A DNA stretch of 64,000 nt. Origin: Straminergon stramineum. Lineage: Eukaryota; Streptophyta; Bryopsida; Hypnales; Calliergonaceae. The notes under the pieces are model-generated. The model made no database searches. It worked only from the letters and a program-made list of their open reading frames with translations, and was not told the origin of the DNA. Position numbers and translations under genes: made by a program. Below are positions 10,976 through 64,000 of the stretch, one piece after another (the first letter of the stretch is position 1; each line of letters starts with the position of its first letter). The DNA is taken from NCBI GenBank assembly GCA_963920665.1, contig OY987265.1, forward strand, positions 14,575,001-14,639,000, read 5' to 3'.

Positions 10976-10989
10976 TAGGCTGGTTTACT

Positions 10990-36704: not shown

Positions 36705-39700
36705 ATGGGGAGGAGAAATCCATCGAGGAGGCTGGTTGCAGTAGGATGGGAAAGTGACGAAGATGGCAATGGCAGCAATGACAAAGCTGGTGGTGCTAAA
36801 AACTCCAACGCCATTCTATTAAATCTAGTAGGCGTGGGCGGCACTGTAAGTTCCTCAATGATCTAAGTCATTTTTGCTTAATTCCAGGACCAGTACTTAT
36901 ATGAGTCTTGATTTGATCAATAGACTTACGGAAAGAGTTGAACAACAAACAAGCTAGGGTTCGTTATCTAATATCATTTCTCACCTACTTTCACTCCTCG
37001 TTTTCTGGGAATTGAACTTCACTACTGTTAGGTTCGGTGTGATTATCATAGAGGTCTCGCCATAAACGGAAAATTGAATCCTCGAGAAGACGATCTCATA
37101 AGTTCAAAAGCACAACTTCGTTTAGCATAGAAGCTTTGGTTCTATCTACTATTATTTTTGACCAAAGTTAGGGTTTCGATTGTCTTCCAAATCTGGCCTT
37201 AGATTCTATGCTAGATTCTCCAATTTGATCAGGATCGGTTTGCTCTAGTCTTTCTCTCGGCGCCGAGAGGAGCTGGCCCCTAATTGCAAATCTGTGGAGT
37301 TTATGTTTAATTTTTTTTTTTTAAACTTAGTGATTCCCATGGAACAAGTCGCCCCTGTCAATCTAGTTCTCGAGTCTTCCTCGATAGTTTGATTCAGTCA
37401 CAACGGGATTTTCACTATTGACACGAAATCAAGAAGTCCAGGATAGAAGATTTAGTTTTGTCTACTGTTATTTTTGACCGGAGTTAGGGTTTCAAAATTT
37501 TGGCATATTGATCGTCTTCCAAATCTATCGCTGGATTCTCCAATTTGATGAGGGTCGAGTCCCATGAGACAAGCCTAGAGAAGACGATCTCATAAGTTGA
37601 AAAGAAAACCTGCAATTAAGTTTTGATCTTGCATAGTTCGAAACACCATTCCTCTCGGTGCCGAGGAATACCCATAAGCAAGGCGTGTTAGATTCCAATT
37701 TCTAGCATATCAGTAGTCCTCCAGCAATTGGAACGTGCTCTTGGAATTTGATCAAACGCGAGTCCCTCCTTCGTTCCTCTCGGCGCCAAGAGTAGCTCCA
37801 TTCCTGCTCAAAATTTTGGTATTCATCGTGAATATTGAGAAAATTATTGATTCCCGTGAGATAGGTCACTGAGGTCAACCCAGTTTGGCAATCTTTCATA
37901 AAAATTTAATTTCACAGACCGGTCATTAAGTGATTTGACGACAACGATTTGAACTATTCCGTCTCATTTGACTACGGAGACTTTTTCTATTGGGAGATTC
38001 TTGTTTACAGATTTGGAAGGTGGACGACATGCAATAATTTGCAATGTTCCATTTGCCTTTGCTTTGATGCTGAACAGAATCCACCTCCCTGGACAGTAGG
38101 TTCAACTGCATAGAATCCATTAACCCTCAATTTGTAGAACTCAATTTGGCTTACGGAGAGTTACAAGTTCTGCACATTTTAAAAAATTTCATCACAAAAG
38201 TTTTTCTCTTTCATGCTCTCGGCGCCGAGAGATAGACTTAGGCGGGGCAGTATTGATTTCTATTGTACCCAATCTTGATTTCCATTGTAGATGATTGAGT
38301 TCCTAGATTAGTTGTATCTCATTGGTCAAAGATTCATTTAGTCTCAAAAACATTGTTGACTCTAGTTTTAGCATTCTCATGTGGTATTTTCCTCATGTTT
38401 CTATTTTAAAAATTTGAATATAATGATGAACTTCCTTTTGGGTTTGATCACACTGTTGTTCCCACTCTATTGCCCTCGGCGCCAAATGGAACAAGTTCAT
38501 GGGAGTGCCTTGATCAATTTCTTCAATTGTTTGCTTTAGATCACATACCTAGAATTTGAGATTAAGGATTATTTCCCAATTACTCAAAGAAAGTAGACAC
38601 ATTAGTCAGGTTTTATCACGTGTTTCTTGATTGCACTTCCTTCCTCTCGGCGCTGAGAGAGGAACTTTGCTTCTTTATTTTTAATTAAATGATGCTTCAA
38701 GTAGCCCCTAGTAATTCAAAAATAGATAGTGATCAAATGTTATCTAGTTCAGTCATTATCATATCCCTCTGTTTTCGCTATTGGGGTCAAGAAAAGTTCC
38801 TAGCCTTCTTAGTTGGCATCTAGAGATCCTTGAGCTTAACACCAATATAATAAAACATATATGAATGGACGAATACATCCCTTCAGTTTGAAATGGATAG
38901 TAGAGGAGTTTTATTATTTTAATCATGTCATTGTCCTTTCTCCTTTGCTCTCGACGCCGAGAGGATGCCATGGCTGTTGTAGATTTGATCTTGTCTTTCT
39001 AATATAGATCATTCAGTTTAAATATTTCACTTCTAGAATTGGTTTATTATTTTTCAAATCATTATTTTGTATGTTATTCTCGACTTTTAGGATAGTGAGT
39101 TCAAAATTGTTTTGATCATTTTGGGTTTCAAATCTCTTCCTCTCGGCCCCGAGAGGAGTTGCCTCCTCTTAGAATTCATGGTGTTTATTGATGTGTTTTA
39201 TTCACAATTTTATTTGTGATGCAAAATCTCCAAGAGGTTAATCCTACTCTAGAGATCGAGTTGCCCTGTGTGACGGTTGAATCTCAAACCTCTGATCAAC
39301 CAGTCATTGGAACGACTGAAGACATGGAGGATGACTGTTCAGAGGAAGATGTTGTTGAGCCACTTGATAACTTCACCTCTGAAGATGCCTTTTGAAAATC
39401 TCAGAAAGGAAATTTTGTGGCTTCAATCTCTAATCTACATATGAAACCACTTGCAGTCTCTCGACTACGAATTCCTTTGTGTCGCCTTGTTCAAATGCCT
39501 ATGGTATGGCCAGCATTGCAATCTGACTTGACTAGGCTAGCTGAGGAGTACGTACATGGATATAGAGATGGGTCATCTGTTTTCTATGTTTCAATTATTA
39601 ATGAACAGGGAGAGGAAGAGCAAGTTACTGATAGTGACAAAGCTGCATGGGGACCTCTTTGGAATGAAGAGAATGAAATTTTCAATGGAATTTTGAGTGC

Positions 39701-42700
39701 TACCCCGGAGTTGCAACATCTTCAAAACTCCAAATTCTTTGTATGCGATGGGAACCATCACCTTCTTGCTTGGTCATCTTACATCGCTTGCCATCATGAG
39801 CATGATCGAAGTTGGCATGTTTCTGTGGATTCTATCAAATTGGAAACAAAGGGGCGGATTGGAGTGGTCATGCATGTCATGCATGACATTAACAAGTATG
39901 TGCGCATAGACTCTTTTTTCTAATTTGTTTTTAAGTTTACTCTTAAATGTCTTATCCCCTAACAAATTGACCATTCTATTGTGACAGACACACAGAGAAT
40001 TCCTTCATCAAAACAAGTTTGGTGCACACCTTATATAGGGTCCGCAAATATGGAGGCATGTCTTTGGATAAGTTTTCCGAACATCTTAGTGACTCAGAGA
40101 TGTCACAATGCACTCAAAATCTGAGGAAGTCTTGGTACAGCATGTCGTTAGAGGTGTTCACAGCATTTATTTATCGTGTAAGTTTCTCCACCATCTTGAA
40201 TTTTTCATTTCTTTATTATGATTGATGCCTTACCTTACTTTCTCTATCAATTTATTTTTGCAGTATGAGATAGTTGCTGCAGCAGATATTATTGTGAGGC
40301 TATATAAGGAAGATACACCATTGGAAGATCAATCAGAAGAGGGTGTTCTAGCAGCCATGAGACTAGGCACGAAAGAGAAGACAACTCAATTGACAAAAAA
40401 ATTGGGGAAACTCATAGTTGTGGCTAATCCAAGTTTGGGGAAAGAGTGGCTTCATGAGGTAAGTAACTATATTTATCTTACTCTTGAATCCTTGGTTTGA
40501 TGAATAGTACTTTTATTCTAATTTCTGAATTGCTTATGTGAAGATTGAGCGCCATTGGAGTACAAATTCTATTCCCGAGATGACTCTCGATAAGTTGCAG
40601 ATGATTGCTACTTGCAATGTGAAGGCAAAGCACAAAGTCAAGTGGTTGCGTTGGTGGAACTCCTCTGTGCAAACAAGAGAGGCACGTCGCTTTCCCATGA
40701 AGCCTATGGGAGAATCTGATCTGAAGGCCTTCTTATTAAAGGCGTGCTGGTATTCAGGGGTGAGTGATTGGAAATGAAAATGAAGGTTCATGCTATTAAT
40801 TTATTTTCATTAATTTGATCAATGTTGTTGTATTGACTTGGATGTCCATGCTGATTGTTTTCCTAAACATCATCTTTATTGTGCAAATAGAAGATGTTAC
40901 AACAGAAATGTTTGACACTATCGTTAAAAAGGATAACCTAGTGTTGGCCATGGACTCGCCTCAAGAGCCTGAGGTTTTGTCTGAATACATCGAAGGTTGG
41001 AGGATAGAACTTTGGGATCATGCTTTCCTTTCCAATTTTAAGGGGCACGACGTCTTCAAGAAATCAAATTTATTTCTGAAATACAAGGGCTCAGACCTCG
41101 TGGTTAAGCGAGTTCTGTTTAGGTACCAATTCATTTGAAGTGCTTATAGTCTAGTCTAAACTCTTTCCATTTTCTCCAATCTTAAAAATTTCTTTATCTC
41201 TGAACCCCATTTCCATTTTTGTAGGTACTTCAAGTATGAATTCCTTCCAAAGGCAGCTATCACTAAGCGAGACCTTCCTCCCTTCCTCAGTACTTGGTTG
41301 GATGTGTCCACTGAACATTGCATGTTCTCTCCTTCACAGTTGAGGTGGTGGACAAGTGCACACTTGAAGTCTGGAGCGTGGTACCTCGAGTGCCCTCCGG
41401 AGGTTACACCTCTTTCCGAAGAGCATTTGAAGCGCTCAATTGACTCTCAAGACATTGTTCTTGAGTATGATGAGTTTTCTGGATTGGATGAAGATGCTAG
41501 ATTGAAGGCTATAAAGAAGAGGGAAGAGGCAGATAAGAGAATTGCCATCAAGAATTCTGATGCTGTGGAGAAGGCGCTTCAAAGAATCACAAAGAAGACT
41601 GCTAGAGTTGTTGAGAAAGAAAAAGAGAAGAGCTCAACAAAGACAGCAAAGCAACCAGTAGCTGGCTCATCTGCAGTGGATCAGGGATCTCAATTCCAGA
41701 CATCTATTTCTAGAGGCATGAAGCGTGGGGCACAGCATTTTGCACTTACCCAAGTTGGCCTGCTCCATGGACCGATTCTTCTTGATGTGGTTAATGACAA
41801 TGATATCTCTATTGACGAGTTCATTTGCAACTCGTCTTTGGCGGTTGTGCTTGCTGATCCTTTACCTCCATTGTACCATGACATTCTAAATTTCATAGAC
41901 AAGGTGCGATCCTTCACTTATTTTCTTGAATTCATGTATTCACTTCCAAATGTTTAAAGATTTTTCAGTTCTTTCTGACATTTTCTTTTGTTGCAGCACA
42001 CGGTGGATAAGGATCGATTCTATCGAGGCATTCGTTCTAACAAGCCCCGTGTAGACCTTATCATTGCCGACATGCCTGAAGGACTACCTGTACTTGATGT
42101 GTCTGACCCTCCTACTGCCATTCCAAAGTGGAATCAATGCCCCGAGAAGTGGCTTGAGTTACTTTTTGAATTTGTAGATGGACATTTACAAGATGATGGG
42201 GCACTACTAATTGTCCATCCTTATAGGGCCCAAGCCAAAGCTGACATTCGTAGCTATGCCGTACCTTATGGATTTAAATTACGGAAGGAATGGTGGGGGA
42301 TGAACCGCTTGCATCTGACTTCACCTTTCGATCTATCTTCCACAGTAAGTTCATCTTCTATCAAAAGTTTTTTGACTTATAGGGATTTTATTATAAATCT
42401 CAATGGTAATGTATTCACCTTGGAATGCTTTGTTTTGCAGACATTGCATTTTGGAATTCAATTGTGGGTGAGAAACTTGCCAGGGGTTGGACCTTCGAAG
42501 TTCACATTTCAACTTTGCCCAAAGCTGAAGGCACTTGGTGTGGATGTTGCACGTGACGACATTCTTCAAAATTTCACTATCTCGGAGACATTGTCTATGA
42601 ACAAGGGTATTCCTTGGAGAGGGGCCCGTGAGAAGGACCCTCGATTCATGCAGATGTTCATTGAAGCATTATCCATTCCAGGTGACGTGGTTGTAGACTG

Positions 42701-43382
42701 TACAGCTTCAACTGGTAAGTCCTAAACCTGCCTTTACATTTTAATGAAACATATAATCCTTTCAATTTTTTCCTCTTCTTTGTTAATCTTTTAATTTCAA
42801 CTTAATGTACGTTTTTAGGTGCTGCCATTCACGCTTGTAGGGTCCTAGACAGGCACATCGTTGCCTTGGAGGAGGACAAGGACATCTTTGATGCGATGCT
42901 TGTCCCTCTCATTCGTCAATTTTAGGTTGTTCCGGCAACACCTGCAACCAACACATTGCCCTCAGATGATCCAGACGAAGAAGATGTTGTAGTTCACCAT
43001 GTTGTCAAAAAATCTAGATTCAATAAGTAAGTCCTTGAATTTCTTCTTTCTCTTCACTTTCAAGCATTTGCATATCTCAAAATTTTTCTAATTCTACATT
43101 TGTTTTTGTAGCATGATATATACTGAGGCTAGACACCGGCCGTTCTATTCCTTGCCTGGTTTTTTCCCAAGTCTGGAGAAACACTACATACTACCCCCCT
43201 ATGCTGAGGCGTTAGCTGTTGATTATACATCCCGAGGATATATCCCTACACGAGATATGACTGGTACTTTGCATCCTAGGGTATTGCAATTTCTAGACAT
43301 GGCAGCTCTAGAAGTAGATGAGAAGACATTGTGCACTAATAGTAGTACTCATTCTCAGTCAATGTCTTCTTCATCTACTTGA
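36705..43382 (+). CDS. ParB-like / N4-N6 DNA-methyltransferase-like protein, spliced, two apparent stops
   Basis: Eleven exons with mostly clean GT-AG borders: 36705-36845, 39237-39895, 39988-40177, 40264-40458, 40544-40759, 40891-41122, 41225-41903, 41997-42344, 42441-42714, 42819-43026, 43112-43382, totalling about 1,137 codons. Exon 1 opens MGRRNPSRRLVAVGWESDED. Exon 2 holds a ParB-like motif (FFVCDGNHHLLAW) after RIPLCRLVQMP, like the DGNHR..A core of ParB/Srx-type domains. Exon 8 resembles methyltransferase motif IV (VDLIIADMPEG in place of DPPY, then DDGALLIVHPY). Exons 9-10 resemble the C-terminal SAM-binding motif (PGDVVVDCTASTG-AAIHACRVLDRHIVALE, where FxGxG is expected). ParB-methylase fusions are common in phages and bacteria. 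TGA 39393-39395 and TAG 42923-42925 interrupt, and the phase between exons 5 and 6 is off by one. It is therefore either a recent pseudogene or imperfectly modelled. The catalytic motifs are degenerate, so activity is doubtful. Confidence 0.55.
37254..39155. repeat. palindrome family B cluster in intron 1 of ParB/methylase-like gene
   Basis: Eight sites of consensus CTCTCGGCGCCGAGAG: 37254 (perfect), 37652, 37777, 38216 (perfect), 38473 (weak right arm), 38644, 38948, 39140. They are GC-rich islands in an AT-rich intron of about 2.4 kb. Most differences fall in one arm or the centre and leave the other arm intact. Part of the intron (the words TTATTTTTGACC through CAATTTGAT) is also duplicated with a 316-bp offset near 37152 and 37468. 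Confidence 0.85.
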
Positions 43383-46977: not shown

Positions 46978-48449
46978 AATAGGGCCTTTTCTAGAAATAA
47001 CAAACAAATCATAATCCAAAAAGTACATAAAAGGACAAAGATAGTATAAAGCAAAATGGAGATCACTCACATCAGCCATCAAACTACCAAAACCCAACAA
47101 ATAAAAATAATACCACTCAATAAACTTTTGTAAAGAAGTATTAAGTACAAAGTACCAAATAAATGTCATAACATCATTATATGGTACATATAATATATGT
47201 GTCAAGTCATAAATAGCTACTCATGCTATAAACTAAATCTTTATAAACACAAAGTGATTTAGAGTCCCAAATAAAAAGAATTTGTTGCCAAAGTCCTTGG
47301 ATAGAGCCGCCATAAAGATTTAACCAAAGAGGTTGTGGACCTCACCTGTCCCCATGACAAACCAAACATCGGAATGTTAGTAAGTCGTAGACAAGGTGTC
47401 TTCAGCCCACAACAGCGTGTTATAGTAGTCACAAAAGAAAAATCAACAAGCAAAGCTCAAAACTACACAAAAGAAAATGAACAACAAAATACAAATCAAA
47501 GCCTAACACATTGTGTTCCATAGATGACCTGTGTAGACGCCATCCTGGACCTCACTCCCACCAACCGTAGTCACTTCCAGCACCTTGTAAAAGCCAACAA
47601 TATGAAATTGTGAAGGCTCAAGGGTAGTTTCAATCCCTTATATATTGGCCATAGCAGTGTTTAATTAATGTTAGGTCAAGTCCATGTCGTGGTCTCCAAG
47701 AAAACGTGCTTTGGATTCCAACCACCCATAGGCCCCAAGAATTAATGACTTGGTGTCTAGGGATAAAAAATTAGCCAAGTCAGAAAAACTTGTACTAGAA
47801 GGAACCCTCAAATTAGGAAAAATCAACTCTCCATAATTCAAGGATTTTTTAAGGACCACTTGTAGTCATCCATCACAGTACCCCCTATGATGTGCTAGGT
47901 AAACCTATAATGACAACCAATGAAGCAAAAGACACTAGTCAAGTCAAATTGACAAGTGTAAAAAATCCATCTTAATCATGGAAGCTTCTAATAATTTCTT
48001 GACCTACAACCAAGTGTAAAAAATTGTCGTATGATCAAGAAACAGCCAGATGATTTCAATCAAATGTCCATGGCTAGAAATTAATTAAAAATATAGACCC
48101 ATCAAAAAAGAAAAAGGTCCATATTGCATATAATGGTGTCAAAGTAAAAAAACCCCAATGGCTAATTAAAAGAAATAATCCTAAGGAAACCAGGACTTAC
48201 GGGAGGGATGGGAGGGGCTTATCAATAAATCCCCTATTAAGTGTATAAAACACAACCCACTATAGAAGATAACTATAAAATACCCATATAAGAAAATATT
48301 GGACATTAAATAGTAACAAATATTTATAAAAGGTTAACTCTTTTATAAACATCAAATGTATTCCAAAAGAGGTGCCAACACCATTTTCTTTGTAATACCA
48401 AAAATAATAAATAATGTGCTAAGACTAAGGGTTTAGGGTTTAAGGTATA
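46978..48449 (+). repeat. 1.54-kb tandem duplication, unit 2
   Basis: Starts AATAGGGCCTTTTCTAGAAA and ends AAGACTAAGGGTTTAGGGTT, the same telomere-like terminus as unit 1. Small indels against unit 1 explain its slightly shorter length. Confidence 0.9.
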
Positions 48450-49865
48450 GGCATACATTCATTTTGGAGTATCTTGCAAAATTCTATGGTTCCAAATTTC
48501 AGGTCGTGATTTAATTTCTCGGGGGACATTTTCTTCAATCTATATTGTTGAAGATCTCTCTTTGCTGTAGACCCTTTTTGAAGATATATTCTTTTTTTTA
48601 AAGAGTATATTTGGATGGTTCTAGTGCCGTTTTATAGATTGGAAGGATGGATTTGAGTTTCTGAAATCTTTCTTACAAGATAGAGTAAATTGAATGTGTA
48701 AAAATGCATTCTAATTATTTGATGTTGTCTTTTTTCACATTCTCTTGTTTTTTATTGATTGCATATTTATGGAGTAAATAATTGTTTGTCGAGACCAAAT
48801 ATATCATACCCTATCTAGGAGACGCTATCTACGGGTGTGCGATACTTCTATAGAATTGAGGGAGGGATGTTTGCCTGTTTTTTTTAATCTACAATGGGAG
48901 AACTTTGGGAAACCTCTATGGTTTTCCTTCTAATGCTTATCACAATGTTGTTGTTTTTAAAATTTGTAGACCCTAAAGTTGAATGTAAATAAATGACCAA
49001 TCATATAATTAGTATTTCATATGATATATGCTTAGGTTTAGGGTAATAAAATTATGACTTCTCCGATTATGTTTAATTAGAAACATGGGCATTCAATGTC
49101 TAATACTTAATCATTGAAGCCTAATATACTTCAAGAATTTGTCCATGTGATATTTAAAATCAAAGCATATGAATTGTATATTCCAACAAGAAATTAGTGT
49201 TTATGAATGGGATAAGTATTTAGGATGAATTAGGCACATGACAATCCAGAAAACTATATTGAAACTTCTCTAATGTAAACTAAGTAATATACCCTAGTTC
49301 AAAACGTGCCCCCCAAAATATTATAAGTACCAATACAATGTTGTTAATCACCACCAGTCCTCTTTCCTTGATTTTAAAGAAATACGTAAGTAATATGTCC
49401 TTGAATGAGTTCTACAAGTTCAACAATTTCCTTTCAAATAGTTTATTCTTGCAAGTGTATGCAAAATACAAAAGTGAGTCACTCTTCAACAAAGTTTGTG
49501 TTCTAATTTAACCCTACTACCAACGATGCTAGTGTGCGAGCTTAGAGCCGTGCACCTGTGAACTTTGAGTGTGGAACTTGTGAGCCTAAAGCCCCCAAAA
49601 CTTTTGGGGGGAATTTTTTGCACACCAATTTCTTTTGTTAACTTCTTTTTCTAACAGTAGAGAAGAAGTTTCTAATTATAGTGACTATTGTGAACTATGA
49701 CCGTATCACCTATAACTGTGAATTGTTCTAGTCCTTTTAATTGTCTTCAGATTTTTTCATTGCTACAGGAAAAGAACTTCAAATTGTGTTGACAAGTACA
49801 AGCACTTAGTTCAATAAGTAGAACAAGAAAAAAAGCCAAACGTTGTAAGTACACTAGACAAATGT
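48450..49865. other. intergenic DNA
   Basis: No gene recognised. A stretch at 49550-49620 (CTGTGAACTTTGAGTGTGGA) is a reverse-complement relative of 44270-44345. Confidence 0.4.
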
Positions 49866-49867
49866 CA

Positions 49868-50105
49868 TTAAAATGGACGAAGGAAAAAAAATGGGAAATG
49901 AAAGGAGAAAAAATGGGGAATCAAAGGAAAAAAATGGGGAAAAAAAATGGGGTCCAAAAGAAAAAAAATGGGGTCCGAAAGGAAAAAAATGGGGAAAGAA
50001 AAAAAAGGAAATGGAAGAATTGGGGAAAGAAAAAAAATGGGGAAATTGTGAAAAAAAAATGGGTACCAAAAAAAAATGGGAAAGATAAGAAATGATTGGG
50101 GATTG
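49868..50105. repeat. purine-rich minisatellite, AAAAAATGGGG-type units
   Basis: About 240 bases in which the plus strand is almost entirely A and G with regular T, built from irregular copies of AAAAAATGGGGAAA or similar 10-16-bp words. All six-frame openings here follow from the composition and are not genes. Confidence 0.85.
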
Positions 50106-51800
50106 AAACCCAAAAAACGGGAAAGGAAAACCATAATGAAAGTACAATTAAAATAAATCCTAAGCACATACGAAAATTAAGGAGCAAATAATGGAATTAT
50201 TTAAAAAGAGTAACTATGCAGAATTTTAAAAAATGGGAAAAAATAGGGGTAGAAAATGAGTGGAAAAAAAATTACATATTCATAATTATATGCCTTACTC
50301 AAATAAAGATTAGGGTGGTAGATTTGAACAAGGTACAATTCATGTAAGTAACTAAGTTCTAATTTATTCCCACATTTCATATTTTTTTATTCCACCATCT
50401 ACATTTTTTTCCAATGTTTCTTTTTTTTGCCACCCACTACATAATTTTCCACCTACTTCTTTATGTTGAACTGTTAGTCTATATTTGTTTCCCCCCCTAT
50501 TGTTTTTCCCCTGACCCATATTAGTTTTACCCCCCTCTTCCACCATTTTTTTCAACTATAACTTTATGTAGTTTTAGGGCTTCTTCATTACTTCTCTTCA
50601 ATTCTAGAATGATTTTGGGTAGTACTTCTTCTATTATTTTATTTCTTTAGAGTTTAGGGTCATGTGAACTTGGTACATCTCGTAAAAGTACATTTTTGCT
50701 GTTCATATGGCTTCCCTATAGAAGAAGTGATTTGGAAATTGATGAAACAATCATATTAGTTATTTAGTGATGTTGTTTTTGTATAAGCGATTGTAATGTG
50801 TCATTTACAATTAGAATGAATAGTATTAGCTAGGTATGATAGTCCTTAATTCATCGTAATAATTTTAATTTTCTTATATTATCAAATTTATAGTAATAAG
50901 TACAATATATTTGGTGATGATGAATTCCAAGGGTTTAGGGTCACTTCCATCATTTTGGGCCTTCATCATACAATATGATGTCGAAATTACATCACAAAAT
51001 AATTAATTTCAAATATGTACTACGCATATCTTTTTGATTTAGGATAATTAATATTTGATTTACGGACCTCATGTACTTTGGTAATGATGTTTTGTATCAT
51101 TCTTTGAGGTCCTAAAATATAATAGCATTTCATGTAGAAGTTTAGGGTACATACATGGGTTTATTTTTATAGGTCATTGTCCAAGAACTCAATCACCTTA
51201 AATAAATTATATGTAGATCACTCTAGTAGTCTTATTTTGAAATTCGTGAGAGTCACTTGATTATGTAATGACTTGTATATAAAGTCTTTGTGAGGGTGAA
51301 TTACTAGGAGTTGAGCTTTGAAAATGGAAAAAAATGATGTACACAAAAATTATGGGAAAATGAGAACAAGGCTTTTGTGCATAGAAATGTAATGCTTGTG
51401 TGCATTTTTGAATTTCAATGCAAACAATCATCATAATTTGGGCCACAATGGGATAACCTTGCTTCCACTTGTTGCACAAGTGAGTACTTCATCTTATGAG
51501 TACTTAAATTTTTGTGATCATTTTACGTGGTAGTGTCTAGTAATTTCAAACCCTTGACCAATTATTCCTCCATAACTAAGGAAATGATGAATGAGTATGA
51601 AATTCTAAGTGAATTAATCCCCCCTCCTAATTGTAAGCAAGGGATAACTCACTAATGACCCCCTTACTAATTGCAAGGAAGGGGTAACAAATTGATCCCC
51701 CCTCCTTTCATTCTTACCATGGGTGAAGTCATCATGACCCGTCCATTGGGGGTCTAGTCGTCCTAACAGACTGTCAGTCTGCCCTCCCAGTCGGCGGCGC
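50106..51800. other. AT-rich intergenic DNA
   Basis: No gene seen. A C-rich duplication occurs near 51620-51705 (CCCCCTCCTAATTGTAAGCA followed by similar words). Confidence 0.4.
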
Positions 51801-51994
51801 CATGAGTGGAGGCCTCCACGCTGATTTCGCACTCCAGTGCGATCCATTTTTCTCCCATCGGAGTTGGCGGCATGGGTCTCTTCTCCTCTCTCTTGCAACT
51901 ACTTTGTTTTGGCCTCCGTCTTCCTCCTGTTCCTCTCTTCCCTCCACTCCCGTGCGTGTGTTTCAGTTTTGCATTTTAGTGTTGGGAGTCATTT

Positions 51995-52965
51995 TTGTTG
52001 TACATTTCAGTGTCTTCGGTAGCTCTTGACGTACGTCCACGTAGTCTACAGGAGAGTTGGATAGTTGCAGTTGTCTGCGCCTTCATCTTCGGAGTTGGAC
52101 TTGTTGCGCGCCTTGGATCTAGGATACTTGGAGGTGCCTTCATCGGGAGGAAGTTGAAGTGGAGATGTGCAGTCACTATAAGTTTAGATTTCCTGTCTTC
52201 GTTTCTAGCTTACTTTGCAGCATTGACTATATTTTTTGTCTGCATTCAGGGAGTTCAAAGTTGGGCAAGGTCCTCCGGGGTAATAACTGTGTATGCAAGG
52301 ATTTAAGGGATAGTCTTGAAATGCATTGAATCACAGTAGGGAAAGCATTATAAGTTGGATGTGTTTGCTCTTTTGGACCTACTTCATTGTTGTTAAAGAA
52401 ACATGAATACTAGGTTGCATTGTCTTCAATTGCACTAGTCTTGCTTCAACAGCAATAGTGCTATGACAATGCTGTCTTGTTGATTGTAGGAGGCGAAGTT
52501 ATTTCTGTTGAGTGACTGTATTTTGTGCCAGCATTGGAGATTGAAAGAGAACATCAATTTTGTATTGCTAGAGGATGCACGGCCAATATGCAAGAGATGT
52601 CCTTGTAGTTTAAATATATTAGGTGCGAATTCGTCTCCCTCCAATTTCATTCCATTCAAGTGTAAGTTGCTATCATTTAGTATATACGAATTTTGAACAG
52701 AAGAGTACAATTGTCTTTGATGGAGTCAGTATGCACATTGTGGTGGTTAACTATGATTCTGTAGATTCTTTGTCACTTATTGCGCAATGAAATGGATTTG
52801 CAGTCTCCAGGATTCCTTGTTTCACTGTGAAATTTGATTCTAGGAGAAGAGGGTGTCGGCCATTTCCACCAAATTTGGAGCGGGAATGGGAAGAGTGCAT
52901 AGTGATGTCAACATCTTCACCACCACCCGAAAACCCAAATGATTGGACCAACTCGTAAGTTCTTG
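51995..52965 (+). CDS. exons of an unrecognised membrane protein
   Basis: Three segments join in phase. Segment 1 ends at 52279 (SWIVAVVCAFIFGVGLVARL and FLSSFLAYFAALTIFFVCIQ, two membrane-spanning stretches). Segment 2 is 52490 to about 52670 (LFLLSDCILCQHWRLKEN, then ICKRCPC). Segment 3 runs from about 52803 to a strong donor (TGGACCAACTC-GTAAGTTC) near 52953 (FSRIPCFTVKFDSRRRGCRP, then FPPNLEREWEECIVM). The one-base/two-base phase between segments 2 and 3 makes a continuous frame. The first exon and any exon after 52953 are not located. The 51802-52029 stretch upstream is GC-richer and may hold the promoter or first exon. The next coding block on this strand is the ParB-like locus, so segment 3 might instead be its 5' exon. 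Family unknown. Confidence 0.45.
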
Positions 52966-53218
52966 CCTCTGTCGCGGTATTTGTATTTGTAATATGTATT
53001 GGCTAGGAAATGGCTCCAAGATTTCCTTCCTAGTATGATCCATCAGTTGGATATACGCATTAAAACTAAGCTCATGTATAAGGTCGGAGTTGGTTTGTTG
53101 CGGATTAGGTAGAAAAGTGCACGCCCGCATGCCATTTGTAATGCCCTGGAATACCAAATCATAAGGTCCCTAGTAATGCAGTCTAATTTGAAATAGTCAA
53201 TTTTCCCCTAAAACCATT

Positions 53219-53550
53219 CATCGGGAGAACTCTTGATGAAAGTGGACTAGGAAAATGCAATACATTGTCACTGCGAGATCACTTCATTGTGAAATAACCC
53301 TAAAACCCTAATTATGAAATTGGTATTCTAATTGCTGCCAACAACTATTTAGCAAGTAGACCACTGGGAGATCTCCCGATAAAAACAAAAGCAAGAGTAA
53401 GTGATGAAACTCACTGAACATAAGTATTATCGGGAGATCTCCCGATAGATTGCAAGCGATTTTAGCTCACGAGAAAAAATATGCGGAGAAACAAGTGAAT
53501 AAAGTTTTTAAAGCAGAGCAACTAAAGAAAACATCGGGAGATCTCTTGAT
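53219..53550. repeat. palindrome family A, scattered copies upstream of second locus
   Basis: Consensus ATCGGGAGATCTCCCGAT. Copies at 53219-53238 (diverged), 53363-53380, 53429-53446 (perfect) and 53533-53550 (ATCGGGAGATCTCTTGAT). Confidence 0.9.
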
Positions 53551-53653
53551 GGAAAACACTACAATTAGAGTGACTCCTTCCTCAGCACATAAGAACCCTA
53601 AAATTGCGAAACAAATTTAGGGTCATAATTACCCTTCAGGTTTAGGCCGATTC

Positions 53654-53818
53654 ATCGGGAGATCTCCCGATGCCAACTTTGATTTATCAAGGATGTGAAT
53701 GCAACGGGAGATCTCCCGATGCCAACTTTGAATTATCCAGGATGTGAATGCAATGGGAGATCTCCTGATGCTAGCTTTGATTTGTCAAGGATGTGATTGC
53801 AATGGGAGATCTCCCGGT
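53654..53818 (+). repeat. palindrome family A, 49-bp tandem array
   Basis: Four copies start at 53654 (perfect), 53703, 53752 and 53801, exactly 49 bases apart. The spacer reads GCCAACTTTGATTTATCAAG then GATGTGAATGCA with few changes. Two further weaker copies follow at 53915-53932 and about 53971-53990. Confidence 0.95.
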
Positions 53819-55557
53819 ATCTTCTTTTAATTCGACAGCTTGATGTGATTTCCTGTAGAATAAATTCCCGAATAGAATTACTAGTAGTCGAGTATCGGGA
53901 AAATACATAGGATCATTGGGAGATCTCCTGATACAGAAGGTGTTGAGTTTACACTCAATTCCTAGTGATCCGTTAAGAGATTTCCCAATGAAATTATGAT
54001 TATCACAGATGGTCCAAATAATTCTTGACATGTTTTTTTGTTTGAATGATGGATGGAGATGAGAAGTTAAGGAACAATGCCTACAACAATAAGGCGATGA
54101 GTCTAAGAAACGCAAAGCTGTCGAAAAAGAAAGAGACAATCAATCTAATATATTTTTATCTTATTGCGCAAAGTGAATATAAAAAAAGAACTCCCTACGA
54201 GCCTTTCACCTATAAAATTGTTCAAGTTTTGCAATAGCTGGGTGCATTCGTATCAGTATCATGGTGATAACTTTCCAGGAGCAGTGTTCCAATGCGACCA
54301 GAAAGTCTCAGCGTGGGGCCTTGAGTGGATTGAGGAGGAAGAGGCAACGGTCATCATATGCCCGAAGCTTACATTCATCGATAAAGGTCACATGACAAAG
54401 GGATTAGCTATCTTAGAGCTACAAGGTCTGGATAACGCCACAATCCTCGTTATTATCAAAGAAATGGTTTCCAAGACTGATGAACGAAGGAATTATGGTT
54501 TGATTCTAGACTACGCCACTAGGGATTTTGACATGTGCGAGAGTATTACGCGGAAGGGGATTTTAGAGAAACCAGATGGAACCCACTTCTGGACTCTTCA
54601 AGAGATGAAGAATGAGTGGGACATTCTGGATGAGACCAGGCAACAACCGAAGCTAACTACTGCACCCACACGTCCAAAGCCCTCTCCCAGCAAGAAGGGA
54701 AAGAAGCGGAAAGCCATTGCCGGAGGACCAGGAGATGAAGTGGTGGAGGAGCCAGTGGGCAAGGGTAAGGGAAAAAAGAAGCCGAAGGCTGTAAAGCTGA
54801 CATTGCATCGCGCCGTGAACATGACAAACGTTGAGGTCGGGAAGCTCGAGCTTGATGAGATTAAAGAAATAAACAAGTTGTACAACCAGGTTTTCAAGCC
54901 AATGTACAAATGGGAGAAGAAGCCACTCGCCAATGCAAAAGGTGAATTCCTGCAAGTGCACTACAAGAACCTTTACAAGGCTCCTCCTGGCATACTGGTG
55001 TATAGAGGAATTGAGCCCCAACGCCTCAAGGGAATCAAGAATCCGATTCTCTTTGATGCCGACTATCATTCTAAGAACCGATACATTATTGTCCTACCTC
55101 TAAAGAGAGGACCATACTAGATGGACAATGTTGTGGAATTCTGGGATTCTTGTCTGAAGAAGGAAAGTTTGACTGCCAAATCCCATTACTACATTATTGC
55201 CTTATTGGTGGTCAGCACATAGTGCAAGCGCACCGGGAGTTGGTTGAGTCACGACATATCTCCGAAGCTGATAAGCAGTTGGCCTCAACGTTCAACATAA
55301 TTCCGATTTGGGAACCATACTCCACCAAGAAGAATGATATCATGCATCTCTCCAAGATGATGAACCAGAACATTGTTGGTAAACAGAAGGAGCAGAGTTT
55401 CTCTAAGCAACTTGTGTACACTTGAATAAAGTGGAAGGATATGGGTAGCCCGATGCTAGCGTATGGAGGTCGAACGCACTCTGTAGAGTACAATGTAAGC
55501 GTGACTCACAAAATGTCGAATAATTGTACCTTCTTTTTCTGTTGCCTATGCTTAGCC

Positions 55558-55765
55558 ATCGAGAGATCTTTGGATGCCTCCGGATTTCTAGTCCTCTTTG
55601 ATGAAGTTGAGATTCCTCTTATTCGTCACAATACGGGCTTATATTGGACAATCAACGGGAGATCTCCCAATAGATTCGGAACAATGCTTTAAGTGACGCT
55701 ATTGAGAGATAGAGCACTGGTTACTCCCTGAACCCCAAAAGTGAACCAACAAGAGATCTCCCCAT
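55558..55765. repeat. palindrome family A, intronic copies
   Basis: 55558-55575 (diverged), 55654-55671 (AACGGGAGATCTCCCAAT) and 55748-55765 (diverged), all inside the presumed intron after SVEYN. Another copy at 57602-57619 (ATCGAGAGATCTCCCGAT) lies in the next presumed intron. Confidence 0.8.
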
Positions 55766-58167
55766 GTTGTTCAGATTTACGTACTCTACAAGTTTTCGAA
55801 GACGTCGATTGTTAATAGTTACATTTTTCATGTGTAGGATTTCTATTCGGTGATGTCTACAATTTTCATGGGATTCAAGAACCCTGCCCGGACTTGAGAA
55901 TTCGTCTTCTCTTCATGGAAAATGACAAAGATATGCAACGGTGGATCCAGATTGATAGAGATTTTCTCATGGAAAAGCTTCCTGATGGGAATGGTCCCAA
56001 ATTGAAAAGTAGAAGGAAACCGCTAAACTATAGTGACTACAAGCCCTTGTATGGACTTTGCAACAAGGACATCAACTATTTGGTGGAGCAAGTTGAGAAT
56101 GCAACTATATGCATGAAGAAAACATCGCTCAATGTGGACGATTTTGGGTAGCCATTGATGCCTCTCCTTGTTGCAGCAACTCGAGAGAAGAAGGTAAGGG
56201 CCATGAAGAACGAGCTCATGTGCCATTATAGGCAACATCCTCTTCCGAGCAAGAAGCCGGACTACATTCCATACACTGCCGGACAATGGGATGAGTTTGC
56301 GGTGGAGAAAAAAATAACCCAGAAGCAGATTGAATGGTAGGTGGATAAGAGCATCGCAACGGAACTTGGAAAGGTATGGTTGGAAGAGCGAACAAGGGCA
56401 CTGAACAAAACATGTGACCCCGACGAGTGTCCAAATTCAGTGAAAAGGATGTGGGAGTCGTTCATGAATGACCATGCAGAAGAAACAAACAAGGCTGCCG
56501 TGTCCCAGGATTTCGCAAATGAATACCTCTGCAAAGTCATGGATGAGAAGAATTGGGACATTACGAAGATTCTTACAAACGCCTCTGTGAAAGCATGGCA
56601 TGGTGAAGGGAAAACCCACATGTATTTCTGGTTTCTCTTTGAGGTCACATTTGCTGGAGCGCGTGCAAAATACTTCGAGTACCACAAGTTGAAGCGCTTG
56701 TTTGATGCCCTCGAATACAAGGACACAAGTCAACAGATTATGAGAGCATGATCGCCAGCGGTTCTTATTACGGATGCCGCTGGATTTCACGATGTCCTCA
56801 CACATTTAAAGAAGCGTCAAGATGAGTGTAAGGCTCGAATCTGGGACTGGCATGTGATAAATTACATTCCGCATGTGGGGGATGGCTTCCCTCGTCCCAT
56901 TGCTGGTGCAAATTACAATGTGTTCCTTGTCTTCCTCTTCGCCCACGACCAAATCCAAGGCTCAATGAGTAGCTTCAACAGCTTCTTTTCGGGCACATAA
57001 GAAATTCCAGCTGTGTATTTGTCTAGGGACATGGAGGAAGTCAATACTTTGTATAGGCGCCCTATTATGCTGTGGTTCTCTATCTCTGCGGCACATGAAA
57101 TTTTTTCTAGCCACATCTCTGAGAATATGGTTATTGTGAATGTGAATGGTGGTCCAGAGTTCACGTTTTTTGGACTCGTAAGTCCTCATTCGTATTCTTC
57201 TTGCGTGATAGTGTATTCTTTAGAGTCTTGGTAGTGCACTAACTTGTGCTTGTTCAAATCTGACAAGCTACGGCGAATAAGGTACTCGAAGTCGTTGATG
57301 ACTCCGAGACATAATCGAAAGCATTGTTGGTCGCGAGGCAAATTTGGGACGAGTTGCACATGCAAGGAGATGAGGAAATGGAAGAGGATGAAGAGGATCC
57401 CGCATCGAAGCAGTCTACAGGTTATGGAGATGAAACAGATGAAGGTCCTCAAGAACCTCCACCACCACAGAAAGACAACGAGGTTGTAGATGTTTCTGAT
57501 GAAGATGACGAAAGTAGCTCTCATAGTTCAGAGGAGACAGAGTTTGAATGCACACCCTCGACCACACCTGTCGTCCGAAAGGTTAGTTACCAGAGGGAAC
57601 CATCGAGAGATCTCCCGATGGCAATTCGTCTTTTTCCATTTTTTAGGGGGCTTACATAAGAAGATCTAATGAATTTTCGTCCTTCCAAGAGAAGTCCGTA
57701 GAACCATTGCGACCAAGCCAAGACTTGCAACCGTCGTCTATACCAAGTGCCTCACAGAAGAGGTTTACAAAGCGAACTGTTGAGGAGAAGTCGGGTACAT
57801 TGAAGGCGAGAAAGATGTCGGACACCAAATCGCTTGAGTGGAAGTCAAGTCACTAGGCGGAGATTAGGACCAAGAGAAGGCTGGATATCCAGCTAAGTAA
57901 TTCCGACAATGCCAACCATGTACCCTCTGCTGCAATGCTGCGTCGAAAGAAGCCCACCCCAAACGTCTCCTCCTCTATGTCGACTAGGGCTAAGGATGTT
58001 GCTATAGGGACTCCAGAAGCTAGCCAAGCGGCGGTTCTTCTTCTTACCTGTTCAGAAGAACATACTGCTACAAGTGAGCAAGTGGTGCAGGTGCTTACCG
58101 CACTTCTTCGCACCAAAGCTCATTGTCTACGTGATGAACTCCCGCGAGAGGAGATGCGCAATGATGC

Positions 58168-58694
58168 AACGGGAGATCTCCCGATGCCTACTGACTGAGA
58201 CGTTACTCAGTCGTGAAGAAGCAGAGAAAATTCAGATGTGGGGGGATGCATCGGGAGATCTCCCGATGGATCCTCATCGAGACGTTACTCCCAATCGACA
58301 AGAGAGAGAAGAGGCGCAGATGGGGGTGGGAGCATCGGGAGATCTCCGGATGGCTAATGACCCATAAGACATTGGCAATCTTGAGATGACAGAGAAGGTG
58401 CAGGTAGTGGGGGTTGGAGTTGGAGATTTCCTGATGGATCCTAACCAAGATGTTACTCCCGATCGAGAAGAGAGAGTGGAGGCGCAGATGGGGGTTGATG
58501 CATTGGGAGATCTCCAGATGGGTAATGACCCATACAACATTCGTGATCTATAGGAGACAAAGAAGGCGCAGGCGAGGTGGGGGGTCGGGTGGAGCAGGAG
58601 ATCTCCCAATGCATATAGTTTAGGATTTGAGCCTTTGTCCCCTAGTGACGTCAACAATTAAGTTGGATGGAGGTGCATCGGGAGATCTCCCGGT
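58168..58694 (+). repeat. palindrome family A, about 84-bp array partly in coding frame
   Basis: Seven copies start at 58168, 58250 (perfect), 58334, 58418, 58502, 58594 and 58677 (spacings 82, 84, 84, 84, 92, 83). In the local frame each unit encodes ASGDLPM or a variant, followed by words like DPHRDVTPNRQEREEAQMGV. Unit length is divisible by three in the middle of the array, so it grew as protein repeat as well as DNA repeat. Confidence 0.9.
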
Positions 58695-59182
58695 GTCTCA
58701 GGTCAAAGGTGGAACATCTAATGCCAAAATTGCTGCCAACATTTTGGAGGATACTCTAGTAGACCTGAGGCAAATGGGTCCAAAGGCTGGCACAGTGAAG
58801 GTGAATCAATTCGTAGCTATTCCGCAGGCTAGACTGACTTACGTAGAGAGACTCTCTATAAGGAATAGGTTTAAGGATCTTGTTGATTTGCCAAGTCACC
58901 ATGCACATGTTACCTGCGATCCCACGAGTAAATCTTCTCGTGACATTCAGGCCGCGTGGAAGGCCACGAGTTTTATGTATCAAAGCATTGTTGATATTGC
59001 CTCTGACCATATACCGTAGGCAACAGAGGAGGAGATCTTTGAATCTGGGGCTACCTCGCCTTCCAAGGTAAATGAAGCAGAAGTGAATCGGATTGGAGAG
59101 GACAACACCAAAGATGCTTGAGGTGACATCTTGTGTATCTTTAGGGATTTGATTTCAATTGAATACCGATTTCGGTGGACTT

Positions 59183-59869
59183 ATGTCTAACTTGGCTATG
59201 GTATTATGTATTGCAAATTGTCCTGGTCCTTCGATGATGGAACCGGGGACACCCAAAAAGGTACCTCACCGAAACTATATAGTGATTTTGGACTTGAATG
59301 GAGTTATCCTTCACAGGTCGTATTTCCGTAATAAACTTCATGTTGAGCGTCCGCCGGGTGTCACGACCTTCCTTAATTGGTTGCGTGGAAAAGCGGAAGT
59401 TGCATTCTGGAGCAGTGTAACTCCTCGAAACATCAACAACTTGTTAGACATTGTCCTTGCAAATGCTTCCTTTGGTCGTGGGGATGTAATTTGTCTAGAT
59501 CAAGAGGCATGTACGAAGACCAAGTACAAGGCCCCAACTACACTACATAAGCCAATCTTTCTAAAGGATCTTATGATTTTTGCGCGGGCTACTGGTTTAT
59601 TGACACTAGACAACATTCTGCTAATTGACGACAGTCCAGTAAAGAACGTCATGAATGATCCACACAATGTTGTTTTTCCTGAGTCCTTTTGCGGTGATTC
59701 CAATGACAACTACCTTCATATGCAATTGATCCCTTGGCTTGATGGTCTTTTTAAGTCAAATGAGAAGGTGCTAGTGTATGTGAAGAATAACCCGCTTTTT
59801 GGCAGACAGCAGGGTGTCGACCCATTATCCAATGAGGGCTTCGCAATCATTACCGGAATAATGCGTTGA
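59183..59869 (+). CDS. FCP1/NIF-type HAD phosphatase-like protein
   Basis: The frame is open from 59159, but the first ATG is at 59183, giving 228 residues; an upstream exon is possible. HAD-superfamily FCP1 homology is clear: motif I region YIVILDLNGVIL, motif II region VAFWSSVTPRNI, a Lys in PIFLKDL, and motif IV LLIDDSP followed by NDPHNVVF. FCP1/SCP enzymes dephosphorylate the RNA polymerase II tail using DxDxT/V; here the second Asp is Asn (DLNGV), a variant seen in some plant members, so catalysis is uncertain. No stop or frameshift interrupts the gene, in contrast to the locus just upstream. Family-A palindromes lie on both sides (58677 and 59891). Confidence 0.75.
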   Translation: MSNLAMVLCIANCPGPSMMEPGTPKKVPHRNYIVILDLNGVILHRSYFRNKLHVERPPGVTTFLNWLRGKAEVAFWSSVTPRNINNLLDIVLANASFGRGDVICLDQEACTKTKYKAPTTLHKPIFLKDLMIFARATGLLTLDNILLIDDSPVKNVMNDPHNVVFPESFCGDSNDNYLHMQLIPWLDGLFKSNEKVLVYVKNNPLFGRQQGVDPLSNEGFAIITGIMR

Positions 59870-59890
59870 TCCCTGTTTTCCTCAGGCTTC

Positions 59891-59908
59891 ATTGGGAGAT
59901 CTCCCGTT
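59891..59908. repeat. palindrome family A, copy 3' of phosphatase
   Basis: ATTGGGAGATCTCCCGTT, 21 bases after the phosphatase stop codon. Confidence 0.85.
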
Positions 59909-60366
59909 ATTGTAAATTCTGATGTAAAACATTGACACTGTACATAGGCCTCAGTACATATTGATAATGAGATTGTAAATAATTGCACTTTTACACCAAC
60001 TATAACGGAGAGGACTGTCAATGAGATTGTAAATAATTGTATTTTCCATCTAGTGTGAATTGCATATTACTTGTTAATAAATGTAAAGTAATTGCACTTT
60101 TACACTCATTGTGAATTGCATTTGTGTTTTTCTCCTCAAATTTATGTTTTATTTGTATTCCATCCAGAGATTTTTTCCCGTGCACGTCATTCCTTAGCTA
60201 TTCTTTACATTTCTTGTACAAAGATACTTAAATGGCGGATAGTTTCCAGAATATACTTGTAATTCGTAGTTTACCTCTACAACATTCCATTTGAGAAATG
60301 GTGAGTTTTCCCTATTTTCAGCCAGTACTAGAAATGGTTCTCCGGAGTTCTGTCTATTCTTACTTC

Positions 60367-60561
60367 ATCGGAAGATCTCCCGTTTCTTATAGGTGTTGAA
60401 AAATGTGATTGTCCACTCTTACTTCATCCAGAGATCTCCCATTGTTAGAAGGTGTTGAGCAATGCGATTGTCCACTGTCATTTCATCGGAAGATCTCCCA
60501 GTGCTGACAGGTTCTTCATGAACTGAGTATCCTGAGGAGCTTCATCGGGAGATCTCCTGTT
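60367..60561 (+). repeat. palindrome family A, 59-bp tandem array
   Basis: Four copies start at 60367, 60426, 60485 and 60544, exactly 59 bases apart. The spacer (AGGTGTTGAAAAATG / CGATTGTCCACT / TACTTC words) is unrelated to those of the 49-bp and 84-bp arrays. Confidence 0.95.
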
Positions 60562-60593
60562 GTTTTGAGGTTTTCCTTATCTGATGAGTTTGG

Positions 60594-61070
60594 TTGACGC
60601 AAAAGGCGGTTCTCGTTGTTCTTACAAGTGCTTTATGCGTGGAAGGCGATGTTTTGGATCTTCCTCGGAGAATCATCGTACTTGTTGGTTTTCGTGTCTT
60701 TCTTAAACAATTGGTTGAAGATACTCACTGTGGGTTGTATTCTTCCATAAATGTTCTTGCCGTGGCAGCGCTTTTGCAGCGTCTTCTCCCATGGAGTATT
60801 TTGAAGAGTTTCCTCTATATTGTTGGTCGGGACAACCCTAAGAAGAATGACCCCTATCCAAACCGTGGTGAATTACTGAAGTTTATCTTAGGTAGCCCTA
60901 GAGAGCACAACATTCTTTGGAATCAAACTATAGTTCTACTTGAGTTAGATCCTCTTAAGTGGCCACATGCTCATGTGGTAGGACCCTCCATGTTTGCGAG
61001 GGATGATCTTCTTCTTTTGAGATGGGAGCGTCCGTGCTATGGAGTAAAGGAGCTAATTGCTCAGACTTAA
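60594..61070 (+). other. open frame, possible exon, family unknown
   Basis: An open frame of 158 codons with no ATG near its beginning (it opens at a TTG), so it would have to be an internal or terminal exon. It has protein-like content (DLPRRIIVLVGFRVFLKQLV, KNDPYPNRGELLKFILGSPR, ELDPLKWPHAHVVGPSMF). No family recognised. It starts about 30 bases after the 59-bp palindrome array and may be the tail of the palindrome-associated locus. Confidence 0.4.
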
Positions 61071-61815
61071 AATAGAGTACAAGTAGAACGTCCTTCAGTG
61101 CATGGTGATTATGCAGTTAGTGTGGTTTATGCATTTAGAGAAGCCATAGGGCCACTTGTCATTTCATTTTGAATCATGCTCCTACTGTCTTTTCATCTTG
61201 AATCATGGGCATGGACCATGGATTGTCTACAAACTCTCTGAATGCATATTATGTTCTAAGGGAAGTTGAACTGAGAGAGGTTCTACCTATACTATGGACT
61301 AGTTTGGATTCTATAGGTCATGCCTTCAGTTCTTTTTAAAGGCAACTTCTGTTATTTTCTATATCAATATGAATAAATTGTGGTGAATCCACCTTACCTT
61401 TCAGTTACTTTCTAGTTTCATTCATCCGCACTAGAAGTTTGTATTTGCATTTGCCTTGTCATTTTCTATGTTCTCTTTTACTATAAGAGGTTGAGTGCAG
61501 GGATCATATCGGGAGATTTCTGGTTCCTAATTCTGCGTGGAAATACTAACACGGGAAATGAGACCTAATAGTTCTAGTTTAATAATAACCGTTTTTATTG
61601 GTTTCATGCCACACTTATAGTCCTTGTCTCTTGGATTTGCACTACATCGAGAAATCTCCCAATGATTCATCTTAATTACTATGTACAATTCAAAATTCTA
61701 GGGTTGAATAATTGAATTGTCTTAGTTATAATGTTTCTTGTCCCCTTTTTGTGTGTGAACATCGTCTACTTGACTCTTTTCTTCCCCCTTTCATAGGCAT
61801 TGGGGTCTCCTAATC
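61071..61815. other. intergenic DNA with two last family-A palindromes
   Basis: Diverged copies at 61508-61525 (ATCGGGAGATTTCTGGTT) and 61646-61663 (ATCGAGAAATCTCCCAAT). The palindrome territory ends here, directly before the duplicated P450 block. Confidence 0.7.
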
Positions 61816-61819
61816 CATA

Positions 61820-62455
61820 GCAACGTCTTGGATGATCATGATGGAGTGATTAATGACTATAAGAAGAACTTCGACCTTTTGAGTATAAATTGAGTACAAC
61901 AAGTGTCTATTTTAGGCCTTCATGTTGTGGCCATGTTATTAAATGTTGCAACTTCTTTAAGTGAATGAGATCATGACCATTATGGATACCATATACTTTT
62001 TATTTGTTTTGGAGTAGTCTCTTTTGGGCCAATTGGGCAACACAATTCAAAAAATTTTAACAAATCTATGCTTTGTCAAAAAAATAAAATTTCAAATTGG
62101 TCTCCCCAATTCTCACATCTATACCTTAAGATAGGTTGTTTTGTTTTGTTTGTTTCTTTCTTTGTTTGTTACGTTGAGATCTCTTGGACCATGTGTCCCT
62201 TGGTCAAGTTCTTGGTACCATTGGAAAGCCCTTGGCGAGGAGGGGTGCACGGGCTTTGTTTCGTGGCGTTTGGATCTACAATGTGAAAGTCATTGAATTT
62301 CAAAAAAAAATTGAATAAAAAAAATTAGAAAATTAGAAAATTACTTTTACTTTCCTTTTGACTGTAGCAACGGCACAGGCCACACTAGTTTGTATTTAAG
62401 GGGAAAAAATTCAACCAACAACGCCAACAGGTCAAACCAGCCATTCTGCCTTCTA
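61820..62455. repeat. duplicated block, copy 2 (downstream of second P450)
   Basis: Same order and orientation as 10345-10975, offset about 51.5 kb, with visible substitutions. It is split from the P450 coding part by the element at 62456-63215. Confidence 0.8.
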
Positions 62456-63215: not shown

Positions 63216-63231
63216 TATAGGCTGGTTTACT

Positions 63232-64000
63232 TTACAGAGCTTTGAGAACGATGGGAAACCCGTTCTTAGGCCTGGCCACCATGGCAAAGATAGGGTGATG
63301 TTTGTAATTCGGCGATGGTAGGAGCTCAAACCGGCGCAGCACTCTCGCCATAATGATCTTCATTTCCATTATGGCGAAGTTGTTGCCGATACAAACCTTG
63401 GACCCTATCCCGAACGGATTGAATGCTTGAGGATGCGAGCATGCAGCCTTAACGCCATTCGCAAATCTCTCGGGTTTGTACTCCGCAACGTCGTCTCCCC
63501 AGTAATCCTTGTCTTGGTGCACTGCTCCCACTGCGAATTCAATTTCGATGCCCTTGGGAAGGAACAAGTTCTTCAGATGCAAATCCTTTGTCACCTCTCT
63601 CGCAATTGTTGGTACGGGGGAGAACGTTCGCAATGTCTCATTCAGTATCATCCCCACCTGTATGGCCCAAACCGAAATCACAAACCCAGAAGCATTGATT
63701 TCGTGAAACAGAAGCCATGAATTTCAGGGTTCAGGGCTTTTTCTTTTTAGGACTAAGGGTCAGGCTTTCAGAGTAGAGCGGGTTTTAGGAATTGTACCAC
63801 TTTGAGGCGCGCGAACACGCTTGCGTCGAAATTCTCTTCGTCGCCGAGAACCTCCAGAACCTCTTGGCGGGCACGCTCTTGCCATTCGGGACGCAAGGCT
63901 AGCATTAGCATGGTGAAGCCCACAGCGTTCGCAACCGTGTCTTGTCCAGCGAAGTAGAAGAGTCTGCAGTTGTTCAGCACCGACGCCATGTTGAACTGGA
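63232..64000 (-). CDS. second cytochrome P450 copy, truncated by window end
   Basis: Last exon 63657-63232 and the 3' part of the preceding exon (from the window edge to 63798), offset exactly 52,242 bases from the first copy. The translated parts are identical to copy 1 (ETLR, PERF, FGIGSKVCIG), and the intron 63658-63797 also reads identically. The 5' two-thirds of the gene lie beyond the window. Function as for copy 1, a microsomal haem monooxygenase. Confidence 0.85.

Follow-up and report, generated by a model that had tools for sequence, protein, structure and literature searches.

A family-specific palindrome as the probable recognition site of a protein encoded by a multi-copy DNA transposon in Straminergon stramineum

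En/Spm (CACTA) transposons carry many copies of short motifs private to the element family in their subterminal repeats, and the VANDAL elements of Arabidopsis are Mutator-like. In the parts of two reports considered here, the motif bound by VANC21 is YAGTATTAY, found in VANDAL21 within introns and within its intergenic and terminal non-coding parts; the targets of VANC6 bear other motifs, and both motif sets lie in tandem repeats (PMC5735166, PMC10398659). Sola1-1 of Ectocarpus is a 21.5 kb DNA transposon encoding a 1104-amino-acid protein that is ParB-like and N4/N6 methyltransferase-like; in the portion of the report considered, its authors suggest that this ParB + methyltransferase protein binds and modifies its own element, and they name no target site (PMC12477816). 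Here we describe a locus comparable to these systems in a 64,000-nucleotide stretch of the Straminergon stramineum genome (hereafter the window; GenBank assembly GCA_963920665.1, contig OY987265.1, positions 14,575,001 to 14,639,000 of the forward strand), for which an initial annotation made from the letters alone had noted about 28 copies of an 18-bp palindrome covering one 8.4-kb locus. We put at about 0.6 the probability that this palindrome is recognised by a dimeric protein of a cut-and-paste transposon of ~22 kb, most likely its ParB-like/methylase-like product, which would bind and perhaps modify its own element, most plausibly for anti-silencing or self-regulation.

Like VANC and VANDAL as portrayed in the sections consulted, the element described here has a short family-private motif in its non-coding parts and in tandem arrays, and related elements bear different motifs, here distinguished as the G..C and T..A subfamilies. 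The VANC factor is encoded by its element, and by analogy the binder here is putatively element-encoded as well. The VANC motifs, however, are 8-9 bases long and non-palindromic as printed in those sections, in contrast to a 20-bp palindrome here, and unlike VANDAL the present element carries a ParB-like/methylase-like gene, a gene for DUF7869 (a domain of unknown function) and a NIF (NLI interacting factor-like) phosphatase gene, a gene set known from sequence alone. In comparison with the described part of Sola1-1, to which the element is likened by description and not by sequence, a candidate target and its co-change with the protein were found here, beside another transposase-like gene. 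The bacterial ParB-parS and Noc-NBS systems share with this one a palindromic site and, as predicted by a structure model from a second locus in the window, a ParB/Noc-type fold; they differ in that the sites here extend across an entire eukaryotic transposon. The palindrome is also unlike parS. In contrast to En/Spm, the sites fill internal introns too and the terminal repeat begins ATGCC. In the literature consulted, which included parts of PMC9587614, PMC5735166, PMC10398659 and PMC12477816, we found no earlier report of target sites of such a kind, which is no proof of absence.

All 28 palindrome copies listed in the initial annotation were present, with the starts given as 53219, 53971 and 58594 each off by one. 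Within the 8.4-kb locus, 22 sites matched the 18-mer with at most three mismatches, compared with none in 100 dinucleotide shuffles, and a chance origin was therefore rejected. The remaining six listed sites carried four mismatches (55558, 55748, 60426 and 61508), five (58418) or six (53972). At ≤5 mismatches, no site was found in the window outside the locus; at ≤6 mismatches there were 30 sites within 53-62 kb and three elsewhere in the window, each with exactly six, and two of the 30 (60298 and 60340), absent from the earlier list, are probably due to chance. In a scan of the window, in which near-palindromic 14-mers were tested for clustering with no motif chosen beforehand, variants of this palindrome ranked first, with 19-20 copies within 7 kb. 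Among palindromes with at least three G/C per half, for which the maximum was 4 in 10 first-order random sequences, two families exceeded random, namely that at 53-62 kb and CTCTCGGCGCCGAGAG around 37.2-43.7 kb. AT-rich palindromes cluster in the window too.

The restriction of the palindrome to one locus, as first proposed, held within the window at ≤5 mismatches and failed in the genome: the organism's own 326-Mb assembly, in which copy counts are lower bounds, contained 1176 exact GGGAGATCTCCC cores, compared with 5 for the reversed control. To judge by introns, telomere-type motifs and gene content, the genome gives a plant-like impression. We found that the palindrome clusters examined mark copies of a multi-copy DNA transposon, probably of the cut-and-paste type, of ~22 kb with terminal inverted repeats, so that the initial argument against mobile-element debris did not survive; the motif is genome-wide, and what the window holds is a decayed relic of the element. 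This relic (48426..61825, + strand) was delimited by a blastn comparison with copy B, which lies on contig C1, its main pieces being 79-95% identical, and is truncated at both ends, with ~8.3 kb missing on the left and ~0.4 kb on the right. No convincing terminal repeats were found around it.

Copy B was examined over its whole length and copy C over part of it. The two share the main gene and the palindrome (65 and 50 sites, respectively, at ≤4 mismatches in the stretches examined), start sharply at an identical base, and contain, ~6 kb upstream of the main gene, a further unit that also carries the palindrome and in copy B encodes DUF7869 (E=9.5e-24), the only transposase candidate recognised in the element. 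Inverted ATGCCATATTTAACTAC (≤2 mismatches) stands at both ends of copy B, of copy A (L007-L009, G000:C1:6072567-6090951) and of a 245-bp derivative (L015:6197-6441), and occurs, at the same threshold, at a left and a right end of copy C. Copy B measures 22,313 bp and has 64 palindrome sites inside, with none in the 7,687 bases that flank it. For copy A the length is 18,385 bp, with 36 sites inside and none in 7,615 flanking bases. Copy A is an inverted duplication and is masked in part; the search for pieces of the ParB-like gene in it found none. Candidate target site duplications, judged by eye, consist of 2-bp direct repeats (gt, gt, ca, ta) that lie one variable base away from the ends in four of four cases; copy C has two right-end candidates, of which only the outer one fits the 2-bp duplication, itself short. 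The 245-bp derivative holds palindromic and half sites that resemble, by eye, both subfamily types.

The conserved exon of the element's main gene (54164..55119, + strand; open for 318 codons and ending at TAG in the window copy) had 113 protein matches in the genome. The best 41 rows were 71-100% identical, some being fragments of one copy, and beyond them lay a second group, mostly 35-47% identical. As a close set we took the best 30 of the 113 matches, window included, and compared them with 14 distant loci hand-picked from the lower rows. Each close locus contained 9-20 sites, and the same palindrome was present in 30/30. In the genome scan the palindrome was not scattered uniformly without relation to a gene family, and the tie to ParB-like/methylase-like genes suggested at the outset found support, the fold being indicated for the second locus only.

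Comparison of the two groups revealed a symmetric switch in the site. Leaving the window aside, the 29 best loci gave CATCGGGAGATCTCCCGATG (466 sites) and the first six distant loci gave CATCTGGAGATCTCCAGATG (94 sites), the protein of the latter branch being about 40% identical to that of the former. A finder that ignored the two positions at which the versions differ recovered 470 sites in the 30 best loci: 358 G..C, no T..A, two T..C, three G..A and 107 others, 93 of which were G..C decayed by one or two C>T-type changes. Among the 14 distant loci, 96/103 sites were T..A and three were G..C, all from L056, and at least three related sites were present in 10/14 loci. The T..A loci formed one clade of 11 with support 1.0 in the tree, two of them single-site. 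Blastn between the subfamilies gave 128 matches, of which the longest were looked at. As judged from the site sequences, the G..C and T..A subfamilies differ by one symmetric base change. Such a mirrored change, present in both halves of nearly all sites in a branch, is the outcome that a symmetric dimer would be expected to impose. The change also replaces a CG context by a CHG one, possibly of relevance to plant DNA methylation.

The site also showed conservation as DNA. Palindromes were more alike than spacers in 3/3 tandem arrays (0.88 vs 0.71, 0.83 vs 0.64 and 0.81 vs 0.53, the second comparison, for the 84-bp array, being made on five of its seven copies), and the palindrome flanks were scarcely conserved past one or two bases. 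Ten copies, including a 49-bp tandem array from 53654, occupy 53220..53989, 5' of the ParB-like exon in the presumed first intron; three (55558..55765) lie within the presumed intron 55495-55837, one (57602..57619) in a presumed short intron (about 57582-57647), one (59891..59908) directly 3' of the NIF open reading frame (ORF), four (60367..60561) in a 59-bp tandem array, and the final two at 61508..61663. The other seven are found in a ~84-bp coding tandem repeat (58168..58694; peptide ASGDLPM). The initial statement that copies sit in introns and coding frame alike had to be revised, since these seven are in a low-complexity coding repeat and none is in a conserved exon; across 35 loci (L018-L052), 0/552 site midpoints fell in aligned exons, which make up 62,479/135,447 bases (46%). 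The likeness above that of the spacers, the exon avoidance, the symmetric subfamily switch and the small number of compensatory, RNA-type changes (2/62 changed pairs still paired in the window copies) give good support, at the level of sequence, to the earlier proposal of a bound or modified site.

A second ParB/methylase gene in the window (39219..43382, + strand) is divided into 10 presumed exons, one junction of which does not splice in frame, contains two in-frame stops, and is accompanied by a second, unrelated private palindrome, CCTCTCGGCGCCGAGAGG. Eight of the ten CCTCTCGGCGCCGAGAGG copies (≤5 mismatches) lie at 37253..39156 in the presumed first intron, and the other two at 31537 and 43683. 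Exon 39396-39893 had 207 homologs at E≤0.001, of which 120 were listed, and a model built from 48 aligned sequences reached a predicted local distance difference test score (pLDDT) of 79. The best Foldseek matches of this model were Noc, ParB and sulfiredoxin (Srx) structures, with a probability of 0.99 for the top two, supporting a predicted ParB/Noc/Srx fold for the exon. The C-terminal part of the gene matched N6_N4_Mtase at E=2.2e-4 and 21.7 bits, below the Pfam cut-off of 26.7. Minus-strand ORFs at 28814-33963 resemble, by eye, a MULE-type transposase with a SWIM-like end, the largest of them having no Pfam match. Because the CCTCTCGGCGCCGAGAGG copy at 31537 lies among these MULE-like ORFs, the second ParB gene may be part of a larger element.

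We propose that a dimeric DNA-binding protein encoded by the element would recognise the palindrome, and that dozens of such sites would have accumulated across the element's non-coding parts through the element's own doing, partly via tandem duplication. As the sites lie throughout these parts, the protein could bind, and perhaps modify, the entire element and not host genes, most plausibly resulting in escape from silencing, or in self-regulation, and protein and site would change together at subfamily splits. The identity of the binder, the methylation and the anti-silencing outcome are what we infer in this proposal. Counting in its favour are the motif-free clustering, the excess of genomic cores over the reversed control, the shared palindrome of the close loci, the symmetric switch, the exon avoidance, the likeness within arrays, the finding that in the examined stretches of copies A and B every site lies inside the terminal repeats, the second ParB-fold gene with its own palindrome, and the published parallels from VANC and Ectocarpus.

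Several observations weigh against this proposal. The methylase core of the palindrome's own gene appears degenerate by eye, its ParB-like gene had no PDB match, and the AlphaFold model of P0009, a homolog 65% identical to the conserved exon, had a pLDDT of 34. The remainder of the main-gene exon (55216..55494, + strand; found by tblastn to copies B and C) contains a GGQHxVxAHR stretch that is ParB-like by motif only, and its columns paired with the locus-2 ParB motif in hhalign at a non-significant E=0.4; hhalign between the two ParB-type proteins was likewise non-significant, and the Foldseek E values of locus 2 were 0.04-0.05, none ≤0.001. As for the switch, four of the 14 distant loci (L053, L054, L055 and L060) had 0-1 sites each, L056 was mixed, with 3/6 sites G..C and a position outside both main clades, and the 30-locus clade had a support of 0.59. 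Of the best 41 exon-protein matches, 36 are interrupted by stop codons, suggesting that the family is largely inactive at present. Finally, the binder could be a transposase or a host factor instead.

In the former case, the palindromes would be transposase sites, perhaps of the DUF7869 protein, similar to En/Spm-type subterminal repeats and serving excision instead of anti-silencing. The same element does carry the DUF7869 gene, copy B has sites near both ends, and palindromic and half sites (by eye) are kept in the 245-bp derivative with the same terminal repeats; nevertheless, sites are also found in introns and arrays distant from the ends of the 22 kb element, and at the second ParB locus a separate palindrome is concentrated in one presumed intron; we consider this explanation unlikely. 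Recognition by a host protein or silencing pathway, with the element as a passive carrier, would fit the preponderance of C>T or G>A among changes in the window sites (40/66), as methylated DNA would show. We regard it as improbable, however, considering that the switch tracks the protein tree of the element and not the host, and that selection on the element should act against a target of silencing.

There is similarly little chance that the palindrome spreads passively, without binding, by hairpin-driven or tandem duplication: although the three compared arrays hold 13/28 window copies, some copies have unrelated flanks, the palindromes exceed the spacers in likeness in these arrays, and nearly all sites of one branch are symmetrically changed. 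An RNA hairpin working in transcripts, through splicing or stability, would account for sites in presumed introns and 3' of the NIF ORF, but the rarity of preserved pairing makes it very improbable, as does the lack of Rfam matches at gathering scores across the window, and RNA structure was set aside on these grounds. A viral or bacterial origin was also dropped, as four protein queries had no relative in viral_contigs and one had none in genome_contigs; the 18-mer itself occurred once in each of two viral contigs, about chance level by estimate.

Further conserved parts of the element are retained in the relic. A methylase-like exon (55838..57180, + strand), classed as such by motif and by eye, is palindrome-free, has in-frame stops and is 82% identical in copy B, and the two pieces of it that were scanned had no Pfam match. 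The NIF phosphatase ORF (59153..59866, + strand; PF03031, E=2.2e-14) is open, 84% identical in copy B and has 8 homologs. A third conserved ORF (60588..61067, + strand) is also 84% identical in copy B and matched no Pfam family. Around the relic, two adjacent direct repeats of ~1.5 kb, 86% identical, lie immediately to its left (45436-46936 and 46976-48451), and its right end (61825) coincides with the start of a stretch at 61821-62455 that is 91% identical to 10361-10975. Beside this pair, 785 bp are 100% identical between 10974-11758 and 63216-64000, for which a recent duplication or an assembly feature are candidate readings. Many of the stop-rich exon-protein matches were seen by eye on the 17.4 Mb contig C11, possibly a degenerating or sex chromosome.

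A wider reading, which we hold as tentative and somewhat doubtful, is that a family of giant transposons in a plant-like genome recognises its own DNA, and perhaps marks it chemically, via an encoded ParB-methyltransferase and dozens of private palindromes, a shift in specificity being recorded in almost every site of a branch as one mirrored base change. If this reading is true, the co-evolution of protein and target could be decoded computationally. The family offers a candidate target in two natural variants of specificity, one mirrored base pair apart and each present in many copies. One protein pair and two oligonucleotides would suffice for a direct test of self-recognition by a transposon and of how its specificity evolves.

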